Positions 6,252 to 30,032 of a DNA stretch of 30,032 bases are shown here, in pieces. The position numbers and the translations under genes are program-made. Below the pieces are notes generated by a model that was not told where the DNA came from, searched no databases, and saw only the letters and a program-made list of their open reading frames with translations. Each line of letters opens with the position of its first letter. Within the stretch, counting starts at the first letter, position 1. The stretch comes from a virus, in the IMG/VR virus record IMGVR_UViG_3300018080_000453, positions 1 through 30,032 of that record. One strand, 5' to 3'.

Positions 6252-8114
6252 ATGATGTCATTTACAAGCTACTACATAAAGCCGGGAATTTATATCAAAG
6301 TTCAGAATGTTCCAGCACCTAATGTATCACCAGGCCTTTTTATTCCTATATTTGTTGGGTTAGGAAGAAAAGATTTTGATGTTCAGACTGGTGTTGTCAG
6401 AAGCGCAGCTGCTTATGATGTATTAACTGATGAGAAAGAAGTTTTTAAGATTCTGGCTATTATTGATCAAAATGGAATTCAATATATTAATGGAACTGAT
6501 TATCAATTAACAGAATCAGCTGGAGAATTTAGAGTTGATTGGAGTGTAAAAGCAACATTAACTGGAACAGTAGCTGAAACGTTTGCTATTGTTCTTTCAA
6601 CAAATGATACTCTTAAAATAAATATTGATGGAACTGAAAAAACCGTAACATTAAGTGTTGGAGCAACTCAAACTGCTGCCAATATAGTATCTGATATAAA
6701 TACAGCTTTTGCTCCAGCAACTCCTGCTTCAGATGCTGGTGGTTATGTAAAACTTACTGGTGATATTATTGAAGTAAAACAAGCAAATGCTAATACCACA
6801 ATAGGATTCCCAGCTGATTATAAAATTGCAACTAAAGAACCTCTTCTTAACGAAGCATATACTGTCACATACAGTATTTCAAAAGAAACTGCAGACTATA
6901 AATTAAAATTATTTTCAAGACTTGAAGATGTATATGCAGAATATGGAACTCCAGAAGAAGCAACTGAGCTTGAAAGTGGAATAGCAACTGGTGGGACAAA
7001 TTCTACAATAGTTGACACAGCAGCAACATTTATAACAGACGGAATAGTTCCTGGAAATTATGTTAAAATTACTTCAGGAACTGGAGCCGGCCAAATAAGA
7101 ATAGTAAAAGAAGTTACGGCAGAAGATACTTTAACTGTTTACCCTAATTGGGGAACTAATCCTGATGCAACCTCAGTTTATTCAATAACAGATATTGCAG
7201 ATAATACAATATCAATAGCATGTAATATTGCAAATACTCATGGGGCTCAAGTGTTTATGTGTTCACAATCGCCTAATGATATTGTTGATGATGATAATTT
7301 TAGAGCAGCTATTAATGCAACAGAAGATAAAGTAGATGGATTCCAAGGATGGAATTTAGTTTATCTTAAAGGTGTTGATAAGAATGATGGTATAGTTGCT
7401 TATATAGAAAATTATTTAACCAAAATGAATGAACCTCTTCAGCAGCAAGAAAGAATGGCTTTACTTGGAGTTAAGGCTTCAACAACTAATTACACTGATG
7501 TAGTGCAACTTACATCAGGAATTAAGAACGCAAGAGTTGGAGTTGTAGCAAATCCATGGGCAACATTTAATGGAATGACTCTTGATGGAAGTTTTTTAGC
7601 AGCTGCGATATCTGGGATAATATGTAATCCTAATTATGATTCAGGTGAACCTATCTCAGGAAAAACATTGTTATTTGATTATATTGAAGATCCTTATACT
7701 GACTTTGAAAAGCGAGTTCTTGGAGCAAATGGATCTATCATAATAGAATTACAAGGAACAGAAAACAAGATTATACATTATCTCTCAACAAAGACTGATG
7801 ATATAATTGATTCAGAGCTTAAGGTTATAAAGCAAACAGACGATATTCAGAAAACAGTAAGAGATCAGCTTAGCGTTGCTTTAGTGAACGTAAGAAACTC
7901 AGGTAAAGTTGTTGAATCAATGGCAGCTTCGTTTATACAAATGATAATGGCAACTAAGGTAGATCTTACTTCTATAGAAGATTGGAATGCTGATTCTCTT
8001 GAAGTTAAAAGAAATCCTGCTGAACCAAGAGAGTTACAGATACAGTTTGAATATAAGCCAATGTTTGATGTTAATTGGATAACAGTTAAATTTGGAGCGA
8101 CAATAAACATATAA
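6252..8114 (+). CDS. Contractile tail sheath protein
   Basis: A 620-aa protein behind AAGGAGG (6236-6242). The N-terminus (YYIKPGIYIKVQNVPAP) and C-terminus (RELQIQFEYKPMFDVNWITVKFGATIN) are typical of contractile sheath subunits, whose termini form the inter-subunit strand mesh and whose C-terminal domain packs on the tube. The core includes LVYLKGVDKNDGIVAYIENYL and LLGVKASTTNYTDV. Between about 70 and 320 the chain carries extra beta modules. One segment (about 115-190) resembles a flagellar hook-type motif (INIDGTEKTVTLSVGATQT) and lies inside a second module bounded by NGTDYQL and NEAYTVTYSI. A third (about 238-315) contains TSGTGAGQIRIVKEV. These are probably surface decorations. Confidence 0.93.
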   Translation: MMSFTSYYIKPGIYIKVQNVPAPNVSPGLFIPIFVGLGRKDFDVQTGVVRSAAAYDVLTDEKEVFKILAIIDQNGIQYINGTDYQLTESAGEFRVDWSVKATLTGTVAETFAIVLSTNDTLKINIDGTEKTVTLSVGATQTAANIVSDINTAFAPATPASDAGGYVKLTGDIIEVKQANANTTIGFPADYKIATKEPLLNEAYTVTYSISKETADYKLKLFSRLEDVYAEYGTPEEATELESGIATGGTNSTIVDTAATFITDGIVPGNYVKITSGTGAGQIRIVKEVTAEDTLTVYPNWGTNPDATSVYSITDIADNTISIACNIANTHGAQVFMCSQSPNDIVDDDNFRAAINATEDKVDGFQGWNLVYLKGVDKNDGIVAYIENYLTKMNEPLQQQERMALLGVKASTTNYTDVVQLTSGIKNARVGVVANPWATFNGMTLDGSFLAAAISGIICNPNYDSGEPISGKTLLFDYIEDPYTDFEKRVLGANGSIIIELQGTENKIIHYLSTKTDDIIDSELKVIKQTDDIQKTVRDQLSVALVNVRNSGKVVESMAASFIQMIMATKVDLTSIEDWNADSLEVKRNPAEPRELQIQFEYKPMFDVNWITVKFGATINI

Positions 8115-8135: not shown

Positions 8136-8663
8136 ATGGCAAAACAAACATTTACGGTCCCTTATTCACAAGGAAGATTAAAACCATACATAGGAATTTT
8201 CATGAGTCCAGGAGGATACGACGGGACCCAGGAGCTTGACTCAGCAACTCTCTTTAGTGTTCCTGTAATTGAAGTAGGTAATATAAGAAAGTTTACATAT
8301 TCAAATCCAAGGCCTGGTGGCGGAAAATATAGGGTGTTTAATCAAAAACAATTAGGAAGAATGAAAGAAGCTTATCCTGGTCTTCCAGATTATTCATTGA
8401 CATTAGAATCTGTGGTATACTACAAAGAAACATTATTTGAAGCTCTGAATTTTGGAGCAGCTGATGTAGGATATCAAGATAAACCTCTTATAGTTCAAAT
8501 CAGACAAATGGCTCCCGGAAATATACCAGAAAGGATATGGCTCTTTTGGAGCTGTTGGTATACCGAGAACCCCTACGATTTTGAAGCAAATCCCACTGAC
8601 ATGCTTGAAGTGCAAACGATTGAATTGTTAACTGCTGGAGTGTATGAAGGAAAAGCCGCTTAA
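8136..8663 (+). CDS. Tail tube protein
   Basis: A 175-aa protein, ATG 8136 after AAGGAGG, directly following the sheath gene, the standard order for sheath and tube. It is beta-rich with few helices (SVPVIEVGNIRKFTYSNPRPGGG, YSLTLESVVYYKETLFEALNF, ERIWLFWSCWYTENPYDFEA, MLEVQTIELLTAGVYEG). The layout of a beta barrel with a helix after the SLTLE strand fits the tube fold shared with Hcp. It should polymerise into the inner tube through which DNA passes. Base composition at the 5' end (GGAGGATACGACGGGACCCAG) is locally less AT-rich than its neighbours. Confidence 0.85.
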   Translation: MAKQTFTVPYSQGRLKPYIGIFMSPGGYDGTQELDSATLFSVPVIEVGNIRKFTYSNPRPGGGKYRVFNQKQLGRMKEAYPGLPDYSLTLESVVYYKETLFEALNFGAADVGYQDKPLIVQIRQMAPGNIPERIWLFWSCWYTENPYDFEANPTDMLEVQTIELLTAGVYEGKAA

Positions 8664-16475: not shown

Positions 16476-16991
16476 ATGGCAAATAATTTAGGCAATATAT
16501 CAGATCTTAATAATTTTTCTGCAACAGAAGGAAAATTATCTGATACACAACAGGAAAAAGTAGATGAACTTACAACAGTAGTTTCTGATACTTTAGGAAC
16601 TACAGATATACAAAATTTAAAACTATTATTGCAAGATGTAATAAATATAATGATGCAGAATAAAGAAAATTTAAGGAAAGGGTTGGAGTATACAAATCTT
16701 TCAAAGAATATAATTGAAGAAGAGCTATCTGAAATAGAACAAGATGATACTTTGCAAAAATTATATGATTATCGAAACGAAGCTTTAGGATCTGATTTTA
16801 TTGAAGTGCTTAATATATCATCTACGCAGTTTACTGATTTCTTTAATCAAGTGACAGAATTGCAGTATAGATTGAATGTATTAAGTTATAAAATTGTATT
16901 TTTTGAAGAGCAAATAAAAAGTATAGATAATAAAATTACAATAGTCAATAATTATATTATAGCTTTAGATAATGCTGGAGGAACTATATAA
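16476..16991 (+). CDS. Coiled-coil baseplate-region protein, function unknown
   Basis: A 171-aa protein, ATG 16476 behind GGCGGAG, 1 base after the spike gene. It is almost entirely helical, acidic and rich in Gln/Asn/Ile with heptad-like periodicity (LKLLLQDVINIMMQNKENLRK, LQYRLNVLSYKIVFFEEQIKSI). It has no transmembrane segment and no cysteine. Its stop overlaps the ATG of the endonuclease gene (TAATG). Placement between spike and gp25-like wedge suggests a baseplate component or assembly factor. I do not recognise the family. Confidence 0.78.
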   Translation: MANNLGNISDLNNFSATEGKLSDTQQEKVDELTTVVSDTLGTTDIQNLKLLLQDVINIMMQNKENLRKGLEYTNLSKNIIEEELSEIEQDDTLQKLYDYRNEALGSDFIEVLNISSTQFTDFFNQVTELQYRLNVLSYKIVFFEEQIKSIDNKITIVNNYIIALDNAGGTI

Positions 16992-17695
16992 TGAAGGAAG
17001 AAACTAAAGAAAAAATAAGACAAACTCTTTTAGGAAGAAAGCAACCAAAAGAGACCATAGAAAAAAGAAGAAAAAAACTTATAGGAAATAAACACAAATC
17101 ACATAAGCCTATTTCTGAAGAATCACGAAAAAGATATAGTATTGCTAGTAAAAAAAGAATAAAAGAGCAAGGTCATCCAATGCAAGGAAAACATCATTCT
17201 TTTGAGGCAAAAATTAAAATAGGAAAGAGTTCTGAAGGAAGAAGTTTTATAAACAGAAAACCTTTTTCTGAAAAAACTAAACAAAAACTTTCAAAAATTA
17301 CTACTGAAAATTATTTAAATGGAAAAATGGAATTTCCAAAAAAAAGATATAGAAGTGGAAAAAGAAAAGATTTATGGAATATTTATTTTAGAACAGGTTT
17401 TGAAGCTAATTTTGCAAGGATTTTAAAGTATTTAGAAATTGAATTTCAATACGAAAAGAAAGTTTTTAGATTAAGTAATAGGAGGAGGTATATTGCAGAT
17501 TTTTATTTGCCTAAAATAGATAAATATTATGAATTGAAAGGATATCCTTATAATGCTAATGAAAATAAATATATGCTTTTTAAAAAAGATTATCCAAATA
17601 TTGATTGGGTATTTTTAAGACAAGATTCTATTGAATGGAAAAGATTAAATAAATATTTCAAAAATAAAATTAAAGAATGGGAGACAAAAAGTTGA
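16991..17695 (+). CDS. Free-standing homing endonuclease, NUMOD3 plus PD-(D/E)xK-type core (copy 1)
   Basis: A 234-aa basic protein. The N-terminal half has NUMOD3-like DNA-binding motifs (EETKEKIRQTLLGRKQPKETIEK, SFEAKIKIGKSSEG, SEKTKQKLSK). The C-terminal half carries E138 in GFEANFARILKYLEI, D170 in YIADFYLPK and E181-L-K183 in YYELKGY. This is the E...D...ExK arrangement of PD-(D/E)xK nucleases. The gene lies between two baseplate genes and uses a GGAGG (16978-16982) inside the upstream gene. Such enzymes cut alleles lacking the gene and spread by repair. It overlaps the next gene. Codon use is even richer in AAA/AGA than its neighbours, as expected for a mobile gene. Confidence 0.88.
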   Translation: MKEETKEKIRQTLLGRKQPKETIEKRRKKLIGNKHKSHKPISEESRKRYSIASKKRIKEQGHPMQGKHHSFEAKIKIGKSSEGRSFINRKPFSEKTKQKLSKITTENYLNGKMEFPKKRYRSGKRKDLWNIYFRTGFEANFARILKYLEIEFQYEKKVFRLSNRRRYIADFYLPKIDKYYELKGYPYNANENKYMLFKKDYPNIDWVFLRQDSIEWKRLNKYFKNKIKEWETKS

Positions 17696-18196: not shown

Positions 18197-19687
18197 ATGA
18201 CTTCTGTAGAAGAAATTTATAAAGAAATGAAACAAATATTATTTTCTATAAGAACTGATATAGCAGTTAATCCAGGAACTGTGACATCAGATTCTGTATT
18301 AAGTCCTGTCTCTTATATAATGTATAAAGAAAGAGTTAACCTTGAATTTGTTTTTGCAATGCAAGCTTTAGCTCTTATAAGAGAATTATTATTAAATCAA
18401 ACTGCTCTTGAAGAAATAGCAAATATAAGAAATATTACTATTGATGAATTAAAAGATGTGATAAGCGATTTCTTAGATAAAATAGGAGAAAACTATGGAG
18501 TTTTTAGAGACCCTCAAACAACAGCAACAGGATTTGAATTTTTTGGAAGGATAGATCCTCTTACATCTAATATTACTATCCCTTTAGGAACTGAAGTAAA
18601 AACATTAGATGAAAAATATTATAAAACTACAGCTGATGTGACAATGTTTGTAACAGGAAGCTATTATGATCCTGAATCAAATTTATATATAATTCAAGCT
18701 CCAATAGAAGCTTCCTCAGATGGAATAGAAGGAAATACAGCAATTGGAACAATAACATCATTGATTACAGCTATAGCTGGGATTACATCTGTATTTAACA
18801 AAGAGAACGTTGAAAATGGTAAAGATGAAGAATCAGATTTAGATTTTATTGATAGGCTACAAGCAGTTTTATCTGGACACAATTATGGAACAAAAGTAGG
18901 ATATAAAAGAATGGTACTTGATAATTTTTCAAATGTTAAAGATGTTTATGTAGCAGGACCAGGTGATGCTTTAATGATAAGAGATCAAGGATTTAGTGGG
19001 ATGTTAGATCTTTGGATATTACTTGATGATGATAATAAAAGAACTCAAGTATCTCAGTTTGTAAATGCTTATAATATAAAACATGGAGTATATGATGGAG
19101 TTTTATTAGATTATAACCCTACATATTCTGATGGGCTAATAGTAGATCCTACAACAGTAGGTGTAATGAATAAAGATACTACTAGTGGAATATTTAATAG
19201 TTTTGCTGAAAGAAGCTATGTTTGGTTTAATCAACTTCCAGTTCCTCCTGGACTTTCATTTACTATTGAATATGAATATGATGATCAAATAGAAGAAATA
19301 CAAAATTTTGTAAATTTAGATGATAACGCAATTTTAGGAACAATAAAAGATAAAGCATACGCTTTTAGATTTACTGTTCTTGTAAGAAAAGCTATAAGAA
19401 AAAATATAAATATAGGAGCAACAATAACTGTATTATCTGGGTTTGATGCAAATACAGTAATAGCTGATACTCAAAACAATATTCTTAATTATATAAATGC
19501 ATTAAAGTTAGGAGATCCTTTAGCACAATCGGATATTATTAACGTTATTGAAGACACAGCTGGAGTAAATTTTGTCCAACTTCCGTTATCAACATTTAAT
19601 TTTGTAGGATCAAGCGGAGAAGTTGATTTGCTTGAGGTTAAATCAAATGAATATATAAGAGGATTGAATATTATTATAGGAGTATAA
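18197..19687 (+). CDS. Baseplate wedge protein, gp6 / J family
   Basis: A 496-aa protein, ATG 18197 after GGGGTGA. It has the hallmarks of the baseplate J/gp47/gp6 family: an N-terminal helical region (ERVNLEFVFAMQALALI), the beta segment FFGRIDPLTSNITIPLGTEV, APIEASSDGIEGNTAIGTI followed by ITSVFNKENVENGKDEESDLDFIDR, and a C-terminal helical region (TVIADTQNNILNYINALKLGDPL). In that family the G-x-x-G-N and N-x-x-x-x-x-G-x-D-x-E-S-D segments are conserved. Wedge subunits surround the hub and are attached to the sheath and fibres. About 500 residues is typical or slightly long. Confidence 0.9.
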   Translation: MTSVEEIYKEMKQILFSIRTDIAVNPGTVTSDSVLSPVSYIMYKERVNLEFVFAMQALALIRELLLNQTALEEIANIRNITIDELKDVISDFLDKIGENYGVFRDPQTTATGFEFFGRIDPLTSNITIPLGTEVKTLDEKYYKTTADVTMFVTGSYYDPESNLYIIQAPIEASSDGIEGNTAIGTITSLITAIAGITSVFNKENVENGKDEESDLDFIDRLQAVLSGHNYGTKVGYKRMVLDNFSNVKDVYVAGPGDALMIRDQGFSGMLDLWILLDDDNKRTQVSQFVNAYNIKHGVYDGVLLDYNPTYSDGLIVDPTTVGVMNKDTTSGIFNSFAERSYVWFNQLPVPPGLSFTIEYEYDDQIEEIQNFVNLDDNAILGTIKDKAYAFRFTVLVRKAIRKNINIGATITVLSGFDANTVIADTQNNILNYINALKLGDPLAQSDIINVIEDTAGVNFVQLPLSTFNFVGSSGEVDLLEVKSNEYIRGLNIIIGV

Positions 19688-21534: not shown

Positions 21535-22233
21535 ATGGAAAATGGAACTAAACAAAAAGAGAAATCAAAGAAAAAAATATCAGAATCTTTGAAAGGAAAA
21601 AATAAAGGGAAAATTCCTTGGAATAAAGGATTGACAAAAGAAGCAGATGATAGAATTAAAAATTATGCAAAAAAAATAAGTAAAGGGAATACTGGAAAAA
21701 TTCGCTCTCAAGATGTTAAGAATAGAATAAGTAATACTCTTACAGGTAGAAAAATTTCAAAAGAAATTATACAAAAAATGTCTAAAGCTCTAAAAGGAAA
21801 AAATAAAGGAAAAATACCCTGGAATAAAGGAAAAAAAATGAATAAAGAATATTGTAGAATTCATGCAGAAGCTTCTTTAAAATCTGCACATAAAAATAAA
21901 AATGATTTTTATAGAAAAGATCTAGGTCATAGATGTAGAAGTAAAATAGAAGCTAATTTTGCAAGATTTTTAAAATGGTTAGAAGTTGAATATATTTATG
22001 AATATAAAACTTTTATATTAAAAGATGGGAGATATTATACACCAGATTTTTATTTATCTCAATTAGATATGTATATAGAATTAAAAGGATATATGTATAG
22101 AGATAGTGAAAATAGAATTAAAATATTTAAAGAAAGTTATCCAAATATAAAATTTAATTTACTAATGCAAAATTCAAAAGAATGGAAAAGTGTAGAAAAA
22201 TATAAAGATAAAGTTTTTAATTGGGAAAATTAA
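21535..22233 (+). CDS. Free-standing homing endonuclease, NUMOD3 plus PD-(D/E)xK-type core (copy 2)
   Basis: A 232-aa basic protein with its own AGGAG before ATG 21535. It has two nearly identical NUMOD3-like motifs (each with LKGKNKGKIPWNKG, at about 19-32 and 84-97) separated by related repeats. The C-terminal core has E139 in SKIEANFARFLKWLEVEY, D171 in YTPDFYLSQ and E182-L-K184 in YIELKGY. The spacings E to D (32) and D to E (11) are the same as in the copy at 16991, so the two are paralogues. It has inserted within the end of the FN3 gene. Codon use is very AAA/AGA-rich. Confidence 0.9.
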   Translation: MENGTKQKEKSKKKISESLKGKNKGKIPWNKGLTKEADDRIKNYAKKISKGNTGKIRSQDVKNRISNTLTGRKISKEIIQKMSKALKGKNKGKIPWNKGKKMNKEYCRIHAEASLKSAHKNKNDFYRKDLGHRCRSKIEANFARFLKWLEVEYIYEYKTFILKDGRYYTPDFYLSQLDMYIELKGYMYRDSENRIKIFKESYPNIKFNLLMQNSKEWKSVEKYKDKVFNWEN

Positions 22234-27035: not shown

Positions 27036-27209
27036 ATGAGACAAAATGGCAATGCTTTAAAAAAGCCTGATGTGATGGAACAAATACAAGAAATACAACA
27101 ACAAACTACTACTAATTTAAGAGAAACTTTGAATTTGAAAAAAATTGCAAAAAAAGTTAAAACTAAAATGTTTAGAAATGGTATTAAAATTAAAAAAGGA
27201 GATGATTAA
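27036..27209 (+). CDS. Small basic hypothetical protein (57 aa)
   Basis: I take ATG 27036, which follows GGAG (27024-27027) with normal spacing; an in-frame ATG at 26997 lies inside the upstream gene and has no ribosome binding site. The product is 57 aa, begins MRQNGNALKKPDVME, has a Gln-rich helix (QIQEIQQQTTTNLRE) and a Lys-rich tail (KKIAKKVKTKMFRNG). Function unknown; probably co-translated with the membrane protein and lipase genes around it. Confidence 0.62.
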   Translation: MRQNGNALKKPDVMEQIQEIQQQTTTNLRETLNLKKIAKKVKTKMFRNGIKIKKGDD

Positions 27210-27210
27210 A

Positions 27211-28314
27211 ATGGGAAAATTTTTATGGTGGGGAGAAGATGATAAGAAAAAAATTGATTTTAAACTAATAACGAAAGAATGTAAACCTATTGATTTCGTA
27301 ATTGAACCATTTGCTTTTTTTCTAGCAGGTGGTGGAGCAAACGGAAGAGATCAAGCTGGAAGACTAATTGCTTTAGCACAAAAAGGAGTCTTTGAACAAT
27401 GTAAGTTTATAGCAGGAACTTCAATTGGTGGTTTAAATACTGGAGTGTTCTGTAAATTTGGTAGTGTAATAAAAGATGCGGCACCAGAAATTCCTCAACC
27501 ATGGATGACAGCTAAAGAAATATGGGAAGGAATAAAGACAAATGCAGATGTTTATAAAGGAGGTATGGGAAGCATATTTGATAACATTAGACTAGCAGCT
27601 GGTTTTACATTTGGAGCTAAAGCAATATTAGATAGAACACCAACCAGAAAATTATTACAAGGTATTTTTGGAGATATAACTCTTGAAGAATTAGCAAAAA
27701 TAAACAACACTCATATAGTTATTACTACTATGGATCTTAATACTCAAAAAGCAGTATTTTTTAGTAGTTTTGATCCAGAATTAAAACATTATAAAGTATG
27801 GGAAGTTCTTATGGCAACATCAGGAATTCCTGGGGTATTCGAAGCTACACCAATTAAAATGCCTGATGAAAACATCCATTGGTTTGTTGATGGTGGAGTA
27901 GCAGCGAACAATCCTTTCTTAACAATGACAGCTTATAATAAAGCATTTCCAAATAAACCAATTAAAAAAGCTATTGTTGTTTTTTGTTATCCTGACGACT
28001 TTACAGATATTGGAATTTCAATAGAAGCACCTAAAAAGCAAAAGAGTTTTGAAAAATTTAGAGATGCTCTTATTGGAACTATACCAGCAATGATGAATGG
28101 TCAAGAACAAATGGCTGAGATCACTATTGAAGCAGCAGTAAACAAACTTGATTATGATATTTTAGCATTATATCCAGATAAAGTATTGGGAGATGCTTTA
28201 GATTTTGGAAACGAAAAGCTATTACAGCATGGGTATGATGAAACTGTTGAAGGTAAGGGTTATAGTTATAAAGACAAAGCTGAAATAAATATAATAGATT
28301 TTTTAAAACGATAG
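27211..28314 (+). CDS. Patatin-like phospholipase
   Basis: ATG 27211 after AAAGGAG gives 367 aa (an upstream in-frame ATG at 27145 lies within the previous gene). The patatin features are clear: the oxyanion motif GGGANG (40-45), the nucleophile elbow GTSIGG with S71, and the dyad motif DGG at D227 in WFVDGGVAANNPF. The ending includes a long helical C-terminal part. Patatins hydrolyse acyl ester bonds of phospholipids through a Ser-Asp dyad. No signal peptide or membrane segment is visible, so it acts in the cytosol or on the inner leaflet. It stands next to a holin candidate, so a role in lysis or membrane damage is plausible. A role in virion release or in a virion-delivered enzyme cannot be excluded. 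Confidence 0.88.
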   Translation: MGKFLWWGEDDKKKIDFKLITKECKPIDFVIEPFAFFLAGGGANGRDQAGRLIALAQKGVFEQCKFIAGTSIGGLNTGVFCKFGSVIKDAAPEIPQPWMTAKEIWEGIKTNADVYKGGMGSIFDNIRLAAGFTFGAKAILDRTPTRKLLQGIFGDITLEELAKINNTHIVITTMDLNTQKAVFFSSFDPELKHYKVWEVLMATSGIPGVFEATPIKMPDENIHWFVDGGVAANNPFLTMTAYNKAFPNKPIKKAIVVFCYPDDFTDIGISIEAPKKQKSFEKFRDALIGTIPAMMNGQEQMAEITIEAAVNKLDYDILALYPDKVLGDALDFGNEKLLQHGYDETVEGKGYSYKDKAEINIIDFLKR

Positions 28315-28494: not shown

Positions 28495-28608
28495 GTGACT
28501 ATTCTGTGACATGTCAGGATCATCCAGAGTGACGTGGCTTCATTATAATAAAGCATCATATATAATTTCACATTATTATTTGTAAAATGAGAGGCGGACA
28601 CCAGAGAG
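28495..28608 (+). promoter_or_regulatory. Possible regulatory gap at module boundary
   Basis: The longest gene-free stretch in the first 28.6 kb (114 bases). It holds GTGAC three times (28495, 28506, 28529), the perfect palindrome TGACATGTCA (28507-28516), and two TATAAT-like hexamers (28544-28549 and 28561-28566). No good -35 hexamer is in place, so a sigma70 promoter is not certain. The feature is offered as a candidate operator/promoter region only. Confidence 0.35.
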
Positions 28609-28803
28609 ATGAATATGGTTTTAAAAAACTTAATATCCTATAAGATGTCTAAGAATTTTAGTAATAATAATAACTTGTTAACTCTACTTAATCTTTTATT
28701 TAATTCTCTATACTTATTAGAAAATAGAAAAATATTGTATACTATATTGTTTATTAAAATGAGTATACTGTATGTAGATATAAATACTAATAGGGGATTA
28801 TAA
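28609..28803 (+). CDS. Doubtful small hydrophobic ORF
   Basis: A 64-codon frame, Asn/Leu/Ile-rich (NNNNLLTLLNLLFNSLYLL), with a weak ribosome binding site (AGAGAG). Its TAA overlaps the next ATG (TAATG at 28801-28805), the arrangement seen at other real junctions here. The composition is what random AT-rich DNA would give, so it may not be expressed. Confidence 0.3.
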   Translation: MNMVLKNLISYKMSKNFSNNNNLLTLLNLLFNSLYLLENRKILYTILFIKMSILYVDINTNRGL

Positions 28804-29117
28804 TGCTGATAAAGAAAGAGGATATATATAAAAAATTCGGAGTTGACGTCGATAAATTATACGCGAAATGTGCAGGTATTTCTTTAGTTGGTATAATCAG
28901 TGATTATGATAAGACTTTAAAAATAGAAAGAGGAATGCTTTGCCTTCGAATTAAAAGTGTCAAATTAGTAAATCCAAAATTCTTAAGACTTCCAAATTTT
29001 CATTGTGCAAAATTCATTCAAGTAAAATCTGATGAATTTACAGAAGAAGAATATATTTCTTATTATTTTAAAGAAATGAGTCAGATAGAAAAAGAGACAG
29101 CTGAAACGATTTTATAA
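28803..29117 (+). CDS. Hypothetical protein (104 aa)
   Basis: A 104-aa protein, ATG 28803 after AGGGGA. It is mixed alpha/beta: MLIKKEDIYKKFGVDVDKLYAKC, then strands GISLVGIISDYDKTLKIERG and MLCLRIKSVKLVNPKF, and an acidic helical end (DEFTEEEYISYYFKEMSQIEKE). Codon use is normal and the ribosome binding site well placed. It is not part of the virion operon and may belong to a regulatory or nucleotide-related module. No family recognised. Confidence 0.72.
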   Translation: MLIKKEDIYKKFGVDVDKLYAKCAGISLVGIISDYDKTLKIERGMLCLRIKSVKLVNPKFLRLPNFHCAKFIQVKSDEFTEEEYISYYFKEMSQIEKETAETIL

Positions 29118-29124
29118 GATATAC

Positions 29125-29210
29125 GGGGAGCAGACTCTCCAAAAGCCCTTTACCGCTTATCCCACTAAGTAATATAGGGCCTACCGATGAGCTGCTCCTT
29201 TTGGAGGCTA
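29125..29210 (+). promoter_or_regulatory. Structured RNA element with competing stems at a ribosome binding site
   Basis: GGAGCAG (29127-29133) pairs with CTGCTCC (29192-29198). CTCCAAAAG (29137-29145) pairs with CTTTTGGAG (29198-29206), which contains most of the GGAGG (29203-29207) ahead of a 22-codon frame at 29214. The two pairings share base 29198 and are poorly compatible as a pseudoknot, because only 3 bases link their 5' strands, so they look like alternatives. Inside lie GCCCT/AGGGC (29145-29149 with 29176-29180) and CTTA/TAAG (29156-29159 with 29166-29169). The first stem is followed by TTTT, so termination is a further possibility. Confidence 0.5.
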
Positions 29211-29213
29211 AAA

Positions 29214-29282
29214 ATGAAAGTAAAGACGAAAAAATACAAAAAATATATAGAGATACATTTTACAGATACTTTTAATAAATGA
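29214..29282 (+). CDS. Possible 22-codon leader-type ORF
   Basis: ATG 29214 follows GGAGG (29203-29207) with 6-base spacing and runs to TGA 29280-29282. The translation is MKVKTKKYKKYIEIHFTDTF followed by NK. The ribosome binding site is the one that the upstream structured element could hide. Its small size makes it uncertain, but the placement invites a leader-peptide reading. Confidence 0.3.
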   Translation: MKVKTKKYKKYIEIHFTDTFNK

Positions 29283-29314: not shown

Positions 29315-29665
29315 ATGATTAAAAATTTAACAGAACAACAAGAAAAAAAGATAGAAATTTATCGTAACAAGGGGCATAAAATAGGATTAGATATATCACC
29401 TATGGATAAAGAAAAAGCAAAACAGCAATTAAGCGATATGTATGAATGGGCAGGATATAAAAAACCACGTTTTTATTTTATGGATAGTCCTTATGGTTCA
29501 AATATTTTTATTAATTTTATTAAAAAGTGTGCAAAAGAAAATAATGATAACATCAGGGATAACATCAGGGATAACATCAGGGATAACATCGAGGCTAACA
29601 TCAGTGATAACATCAGGGATAACATCGAGGATAACATCGAGGATAACATCGAGGCTAACATCTAG
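29315..29665 (+). CDS. DUF6745-like protein, N-terminal part ending at an amber codon inside a repeat
   Basis: ATG 29315 follows GGAGGAG. The N-terminal about 77 residues (NKGHKIGLDISPMDKEKAK, MYEWAGYKKPRFYFMDSPYGSN) match the pattern of the phage/bacterial DUF6745 family, which has the form I-G-L-S-T-x-P-x-D-R-x-x-A then Y-x-x-x-G-x-x-x-P. A tetrapeptide repeat D-N-I-x / A-N-I-x then starts at residue 78. In the family I know the corresponding region carries comparable D-Q-V-x type repeats. TAG at 29663-29665 ends the frame in unit 10, but the same frame stays open to the end of the window. Full-length product is expected to continue (see the next entry). The function of the family is unknown to me. 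Confidence 0.75.
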   Translation: MIKNLTEQQEKKIEIYRNKGHKIGLDISPMDKEKAKQQLSDMYEWAGYKKPRFYFMDSPYGSNIFINFIKKCAKENNDNIRDNIRDNIRDNIEANISDNIRDNIEDNIEDNIEANI

Positions 29666-29809
29666 GATAACATCAGTGATAACATCGAGGCTAACATCAG
29701 TGATAACATCGGGGCTAACATCAGGGATAACATCAGGGATAACATCGAGGCTAACATCAGTGATAACATCAGGGATAACATCGAGGATAACATCGAGGAT
29801 AACATCTGG
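29546..29809 (+). repeat. 12-bp in-frame tandem repeat, 22 units
   Basis: Twenty-two contiguous units of consensus GMTAACATCNNN, encoding D-N-I-x or A-N-I-x with x = R, E, S, G or W, and a stop in unit 10. Within a unit only base 2 (A or C) and the fourth codon vary; ten units carry AGG or GAG as neighbours of the same type. All other reading frames are also open, which produces shadow ORFs on both strands. Confidence 0.95.
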
Positions 29810-30032
29810 GATAACAAAATGCAATATAATTGGTTTATCTACGGTTACTCACAAAACGAGATACATTGGATTATGTATTATAAATATTTTATCGAACAAT
29901 TTCCAGAATTAAAATGGAACAAAAACGCAGTTAAAGGTTTAGATATTATGTATGACATAGCCTGTAATTGCGGTTGGTGGATACCTTTTAAAAATTTTGT
30001 TGTAATATCTGAGAAACCAACAGAAATTAATA
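29666..30032 (+). pseudogene. Continuation of the DUF6745-like gene after the amber codon (3' end outside window)
   Basis: The frame of the gene at 29315 resumes directly after TAG with 12 more repeat units, then NKMQYNWFIYGYSQNEIHWI, YYKYFIEQFPELKWNK, IACNCGWWIPFKNF and VVISEKPTEIN up to the window edge. This is the expected C-terminal half of the family, which has the pattern W-x-x-F-Y-x-x-F then W-x-x-x-x-F-x-x-V-x-I-S-x-x-P-x-x-I. A separate start is possible at ATG 29819 but has no ribosome binding site. Whether the gene is broken, read through, or has a sequencing error cannot be told from the sequence. Confidence 0.7.

Follow-up and report, generated by a model that had tools for sequence, protein, structure and literature searches.

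Does the gap between two genes near the end of a phage record encode an RNA switch, or a hairpin with a different role? A sequence-only reading of positions 29125–29210 had proposed two mutually exclusive stems, the second of which hides the ribosome binding site of a short downstream frame while the first frees it. The locus was examined using a combination of energy folding, shuffled and simulated controls, and searches for relatives and known RNA classes.

Genomic Setting and Sequence Elements

The window analyzed is the whole virus record IMGVR_UViG_3300018080_000453 (30,032 nt), and its source is an uncultured tailed phage. The record carries a run of tail genes, and nearly all of its genes are tightly packed on the plus strand. 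A baseplate J protein gene is found at 18197, and the sheath-like protein at 6252 has distant similarity to Bacillus phage G. A patatin-like phospholipase gene (27145–28314; Pfam E 1.1e-20) lies at the end of the tail-gene run. Two endonuclease-like genes (16991–17695 and 21535–22233) are located between tail genes; both weakly match phage endonuclease I and the second contains a NUMOD3 motif, which suggests that they may be free-standing homing endonucleases.

The element is located near the end of the record, in a gap of 96 bases (29118–29213) between a 104-aa gene and a 22-codon frame. The predicted hairpin fills nearly all of this gap, with the upstream stop codon 7 bases 5' of its first paired base. 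The G+C content of the gap is 0.48, as opposed to 0.21–0.33 in the other gaps and 30% in the genome. Translation reading through the upstream stop codon would end 16 codons on, within the hairpin. The longest gap in the window is a 308-base stretch without long open frames (28495–28802), which folds no better than its shuffles. Downstream of the 22-codon frame is an open frame (29315–30032) with a weak match to DUF6745 in its C-terminal part (E 1.7e-5, below the Pfam cut-off) and a 12-bp coding repeat in about 22 copies (29546–29816). One in-frame TAG (29663–29665) lies inside this array; as other genes of the window end normally at TAG, this one is apparently interrupted or truncated. At the opposite end of the record (1–203) lies another 12-bp tandem array, with about 17 copies of ACTATAACTGAA. 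The features of the locus are as follows.

28803–29117, plus strand: upstream gene, 104 aa, no known family; stop codon 29115–29117
29125–29200, plus strand: whole hairpin, minimum-energy fold with the SD open, from energy folding
29127–29133, plus strand: stem 1, 5' strand GGAGCAG, from sequence
29192–29198, plus strand: stem 1, 3' strand CTGCTCC, whose CTCC (29195–29198) is also the anti-SD of a local alternative hairpin
29137–29145, plus strand: stem 2, 5' strand CTCCAAAAG, the SD-hiding strand of the sequence-only reading
29198–29206, plus strand: stem 2, 3' strand CTTTTGGAG
29203–29207, plus strand: ribosome binding site GGAGG, 6 bases before the ATG
29125–29140, plus strand: alternative local hairpin HA, GGGGAG-CAGA-CUCUCC, from folding
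29190–29209, plus strand: alternative local hairpin HB, AGC-UG-CUCC-UUUU-GGAGGCU, in which the ribosome binding site would be hidden
29214–29282, plus strand: 22-codon open frame MKVKTKKYKKYIEIHFTDTFNK, no family found

The sequence elements described beforehand are all present: the 7-bp stem 1, the 9-bp stem 2, the TTTT that follows stem 1 (29199–29202), and the GGAGG of the frame starting at 29214. Base 29198 is common to both stems. The pair of TACCG motifs proposed as an inner element is also found (29151–29155 and 29182–29186), both copies in or beside internal loops of the predicted hairpin; TACCG occurs at 8561 and 8723 as well and is therefore not special to the element.

Predicted Fold and Its Stability

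The minimum-energy fold contains about 26 pairs in total. The basal stem (29125–29133/29192–29200) is followed by a short second stem with single-base bulges (29135–29139 with 29186–29191), a 5x5 internal loop (CAAAA/CUACC), and apical stems (29145–29159/29166–29180) closed by the hexaloop UCCCAC. The branched inner region that had been described was not recovered, as the predicted core is one unbranched, rod-like hairpin.

This hairpin has the lowest energy of all 90-nt windows in the record on either strand (-31.5 kcal/mol on the plus strand and -36.0 on the minus strand). The corresponding z scores against dinucleotide shuffles are -3.2 and about -3 to -4.2, and none of 200 shuffles was as stable as the native hairpin. 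When 48 sequences of 30 kb with the same length and base statistics as the record were simulated (one strand each), three contained a 90-nt window at or below -31.5 kcal/mol and none reached -36. None of the other eight intergenic gaps has a z below -1.3, so that a significant fold is confined to 29118–29213. The hairpin thus probably exceeds chance, to a moderate degree, although picking the best one out of 30 kb confers some advantage. Because its arms are nearly palindromic, the reverse complement folds equally well or better.

Relatives and Known RNA Classes

The expectation that the element would match no known class was borne out, as Rfam gave no match at the gathering score and only chance matches, no riboswitch among them, at E up to 10. 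No match was found to a plain terminator or to a tRNA-like relic, the two identities that had been set against the switch proposal. No tRNA matched among the Rfam results at E up to 10, ARAGORN called none at default settings, and its relaxed runs gave, among the calls listed, only scattered low-quality ones. As far as tested, the span of 72 nt and a minus-strand CTCATCGGTAG that resembles a D arm are coincidental.

No homologues of the element were found in viral, phage, plasmid or genome collections. DNA similarity searches with the element returned no relatives, and DNA patterns built for it found none in viral contigs. Four window proteins or parts of them, used as queries, found no relatives in viral contigs; in phage records the same queries reached only tail proteins with distant similarity, those of Bacillus phage G among them. 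A covariance model built from the single sequence gave nothing in any of three large phages, where the best E was 2. Seven contigs with a common 16-mer are chance matches, unrelated by the covariance model. Eight genome contigs contain both short stems; the rest of the element is missing from them, and they are likewise unrelated by the covariance model and look like chance.

A Proposed Intercistronic Hairpin in Phage mRNA

The explanation we favor, tentatively, is that the element is a constitutive intercistronic hairpin in phage mRNA, serving as a spacer and protective 3' end and as an RNase III-type processing site with the downstream start accessible. In the best predicted fold, the CUCC that is able to hide the GGAGG would be locked away, leaving the ribosome site open and the downstream start accessible. 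The hairpin may act as a constitutive spacer and a protective 3' end for the upstream message. A long stem with an internal loop just before the next gene could also provide a double-stranded site for RNase III-type processing. In phage T7, RNase III sites are placed before genes. RNase III signals lie between genes and have some 20 base pairs or more, in most cases broken up by an internal loop; the element has 26 pairs, a 5x5 internal loop and a position between two genes, a layout that is necessary and not sufficient for such a signal.

The mRNA-hairpin assignment is consistent with this position, with the strongest fold of the record, with the G+C of 0.48, and with the low cost of opening the ribosome site. 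Against it, the minus strand folds better (-36.0 kcal/mol), which is not predicted by a plus-strand mRNA element, and no homologue was found that could show conservation or covariation. An accompanying role as a terminator is weak, with only 4 T after the stem.

Alternative Structures at the Ribosome Binding Site

Two rather different switches can be drawn at this site. In the first, GGAG and CTCC are each present twice, and therefore two local hairpins can form instead of the long one. In this arrangement the ON state is the basal stem, which holds the CUCC at 29195–29198, and the OFF state is HA plus HB (29125–29130/29135–29140 and 29190–29198/29203–29209), in which HB pairs the whole ribosome site (GGAGGCU). 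A ligand, protein or ribosome acting on the 5' strand would decide between the two. The OFF state folds at -28.1 kcal/mol, 3.4 above the ON state at -31.5, and a path search between them found a saddle at -15.2, a barrier of about 13–16 kcal/mol. HA is also able to form before the long stem is complete. However, the open and hidden states lie within 3.4 kcal/mol of each other in 43% of shuffles that keep the ribosome site. None of 500 such shuffles reached the -31.5 of the open state, while the stability of the hidden state was matched in 4.6%. On average the shuffles favor the hidden site (-21.9 versus -18.0 for the open site), and the native order is the reverse. As modeled, it is the stability of the open state and not of the hidden state that appears exceptional, which speaks for a hairpin that would keep the site open.

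Opening the ribosome site costs about 0.5–1 kcal/mol in the full transcript. Blocking the bases to 29130 or beyond from pairing raises this cost from about 0.9 to 4.8 kcal/mol, a point in favor of this switch, but the cost is still 1.4–1.6 kcal/mol when the bases to about 29127 are unpaired. Given the size of its footprint, a ribosome that terminates at 29117 is expected to reach no farther than about 29127, which leaves control by upstream translation only marginally possible. In addition, no homologues of this switch were found, and its controlled product would be a 22-codon frame without assigned meaning. HA plus HB would be the reasonable form for a switch, if there is any, according to the folding models; taken together, we consider a translational switch with these partners unlikely. 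Its fullest version, a new phage-borne translational switch in which a ligand, or ribosomes translating the upstream gene, would choose between the basal stem and HA plus HB to control the 22-codon leader and the gene behind it, appears quite unlikely.

The second switch is the one originally proposed, with stem 1 against the 9-bp stem 2. The 9-bp match is locally rare, as a complement of at least 9 nt to the GGAG region appeared in 80 of 20,000 local shuffles (0.4%), and across the window's 35 start sites no complement is longer; the next longest has 6. Because 35 sites were looked at, this rarity is weak evidence. Stem 2 also forms the best fold once everything up to 29135 is barred from pairing. 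However, the best fold with stem 2 imposed is -19.6 kcal/mol versus -31.5 with stem 1, a penalty of 12 kcal/mol, and stem 1 is complete on transcription of 29198, while stem 2 needs bases up to 29206; stem 2 is thus at a disadvantage in both energy and time. The claim of an RNA switch holds in one part, that of a structured RNA element beside a ribosome binding site, and fails in the balance between the two stems, and the switch exactly as first written is hardly credible. By estimate, there is steric room for stem 1 and a shortened stem 2 (CUCC/GGAG) to form a pseudoknot, which must break the CUCUC/GAUGAG helix and is not favored.

Less Likely Readings: Palindromic DNA, Minus-Strand RNA and Termination

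The near-palindromic arms also allow the element to be viewed as a 72-bp imperfect inverted repeat that acts as DNA or is read from the other strand. Candidates include a site of protein binding or recombination, a small mobile hairpin, and a non-coding RNA off the other strand. Several observations point in this direction: the element's own model gives its reverse complement 25.3 bits, folding is stronger on the minus strand (z about -3 to -4.2), the composition of the element is foreign to the genome, and of the five transition mismatches between the two arms, as read from the sequence, four can pair as G-U on the minus strand alone. The four-against-one G-U count is not significant, however, and promoter-like sites are no commoner than chance. 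The fold as DNA is weak (z -1.5), and neither the window nor the collections searched yielded another copy. This group of readings, palindromic DNA or minus-strand RNA, has a small chance of being correct.

A weak intrinsic terminator for the 104-aa gene is very unlikely: the basal stem does begin 7 bases past the stop codon, with TTTT behind stem 1, but a scan for short-loop stems followed by at least 5 T in 8 found none, the stem is broken by loops, and the 4 T are followed by GGAGG, with the ribosome site directly behind.

Comparison with Known Systems

So far the element is represented by one sequence, with one good hairpin in it. As a processing or stability hairpin, it would be unremarkable in the design of a phage operon; should relatives turn out to conserve a two-state fold, they would make it a novel regulatory RNA from large tailed phages of a poorly known group. 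The element resembles intrinsic terminators in having a G+C-rich stem just past a stop codon, followed by T, and differs from them in its 4 T, its large interrupted stem, and the absence of a scan call. As in pseudoknotted translational riboswitches of the preQ1 and SAM-II kinds, a strand within a loop (29137–29140) is complementary to bases of the ribosome binding site (29203–29206). In contrast to these riboswitches, the element has no Rfam match and no ligand-linked gene nearby, and nested folds that include this pairing are all far less stable than the one predicted here. The T7 signal R1.1 is cut once, into fragments of 47 and 13 nt (PMC4858673). The candidate element shows no sequence relation to R1.1 and the other T7-type RNase III signals, and its predicted internal loop is a symmetric 5x5; like these signals, however, it is a long imperfect hairpin with an internal loop, located between genes and directly before a ribosome binding site.
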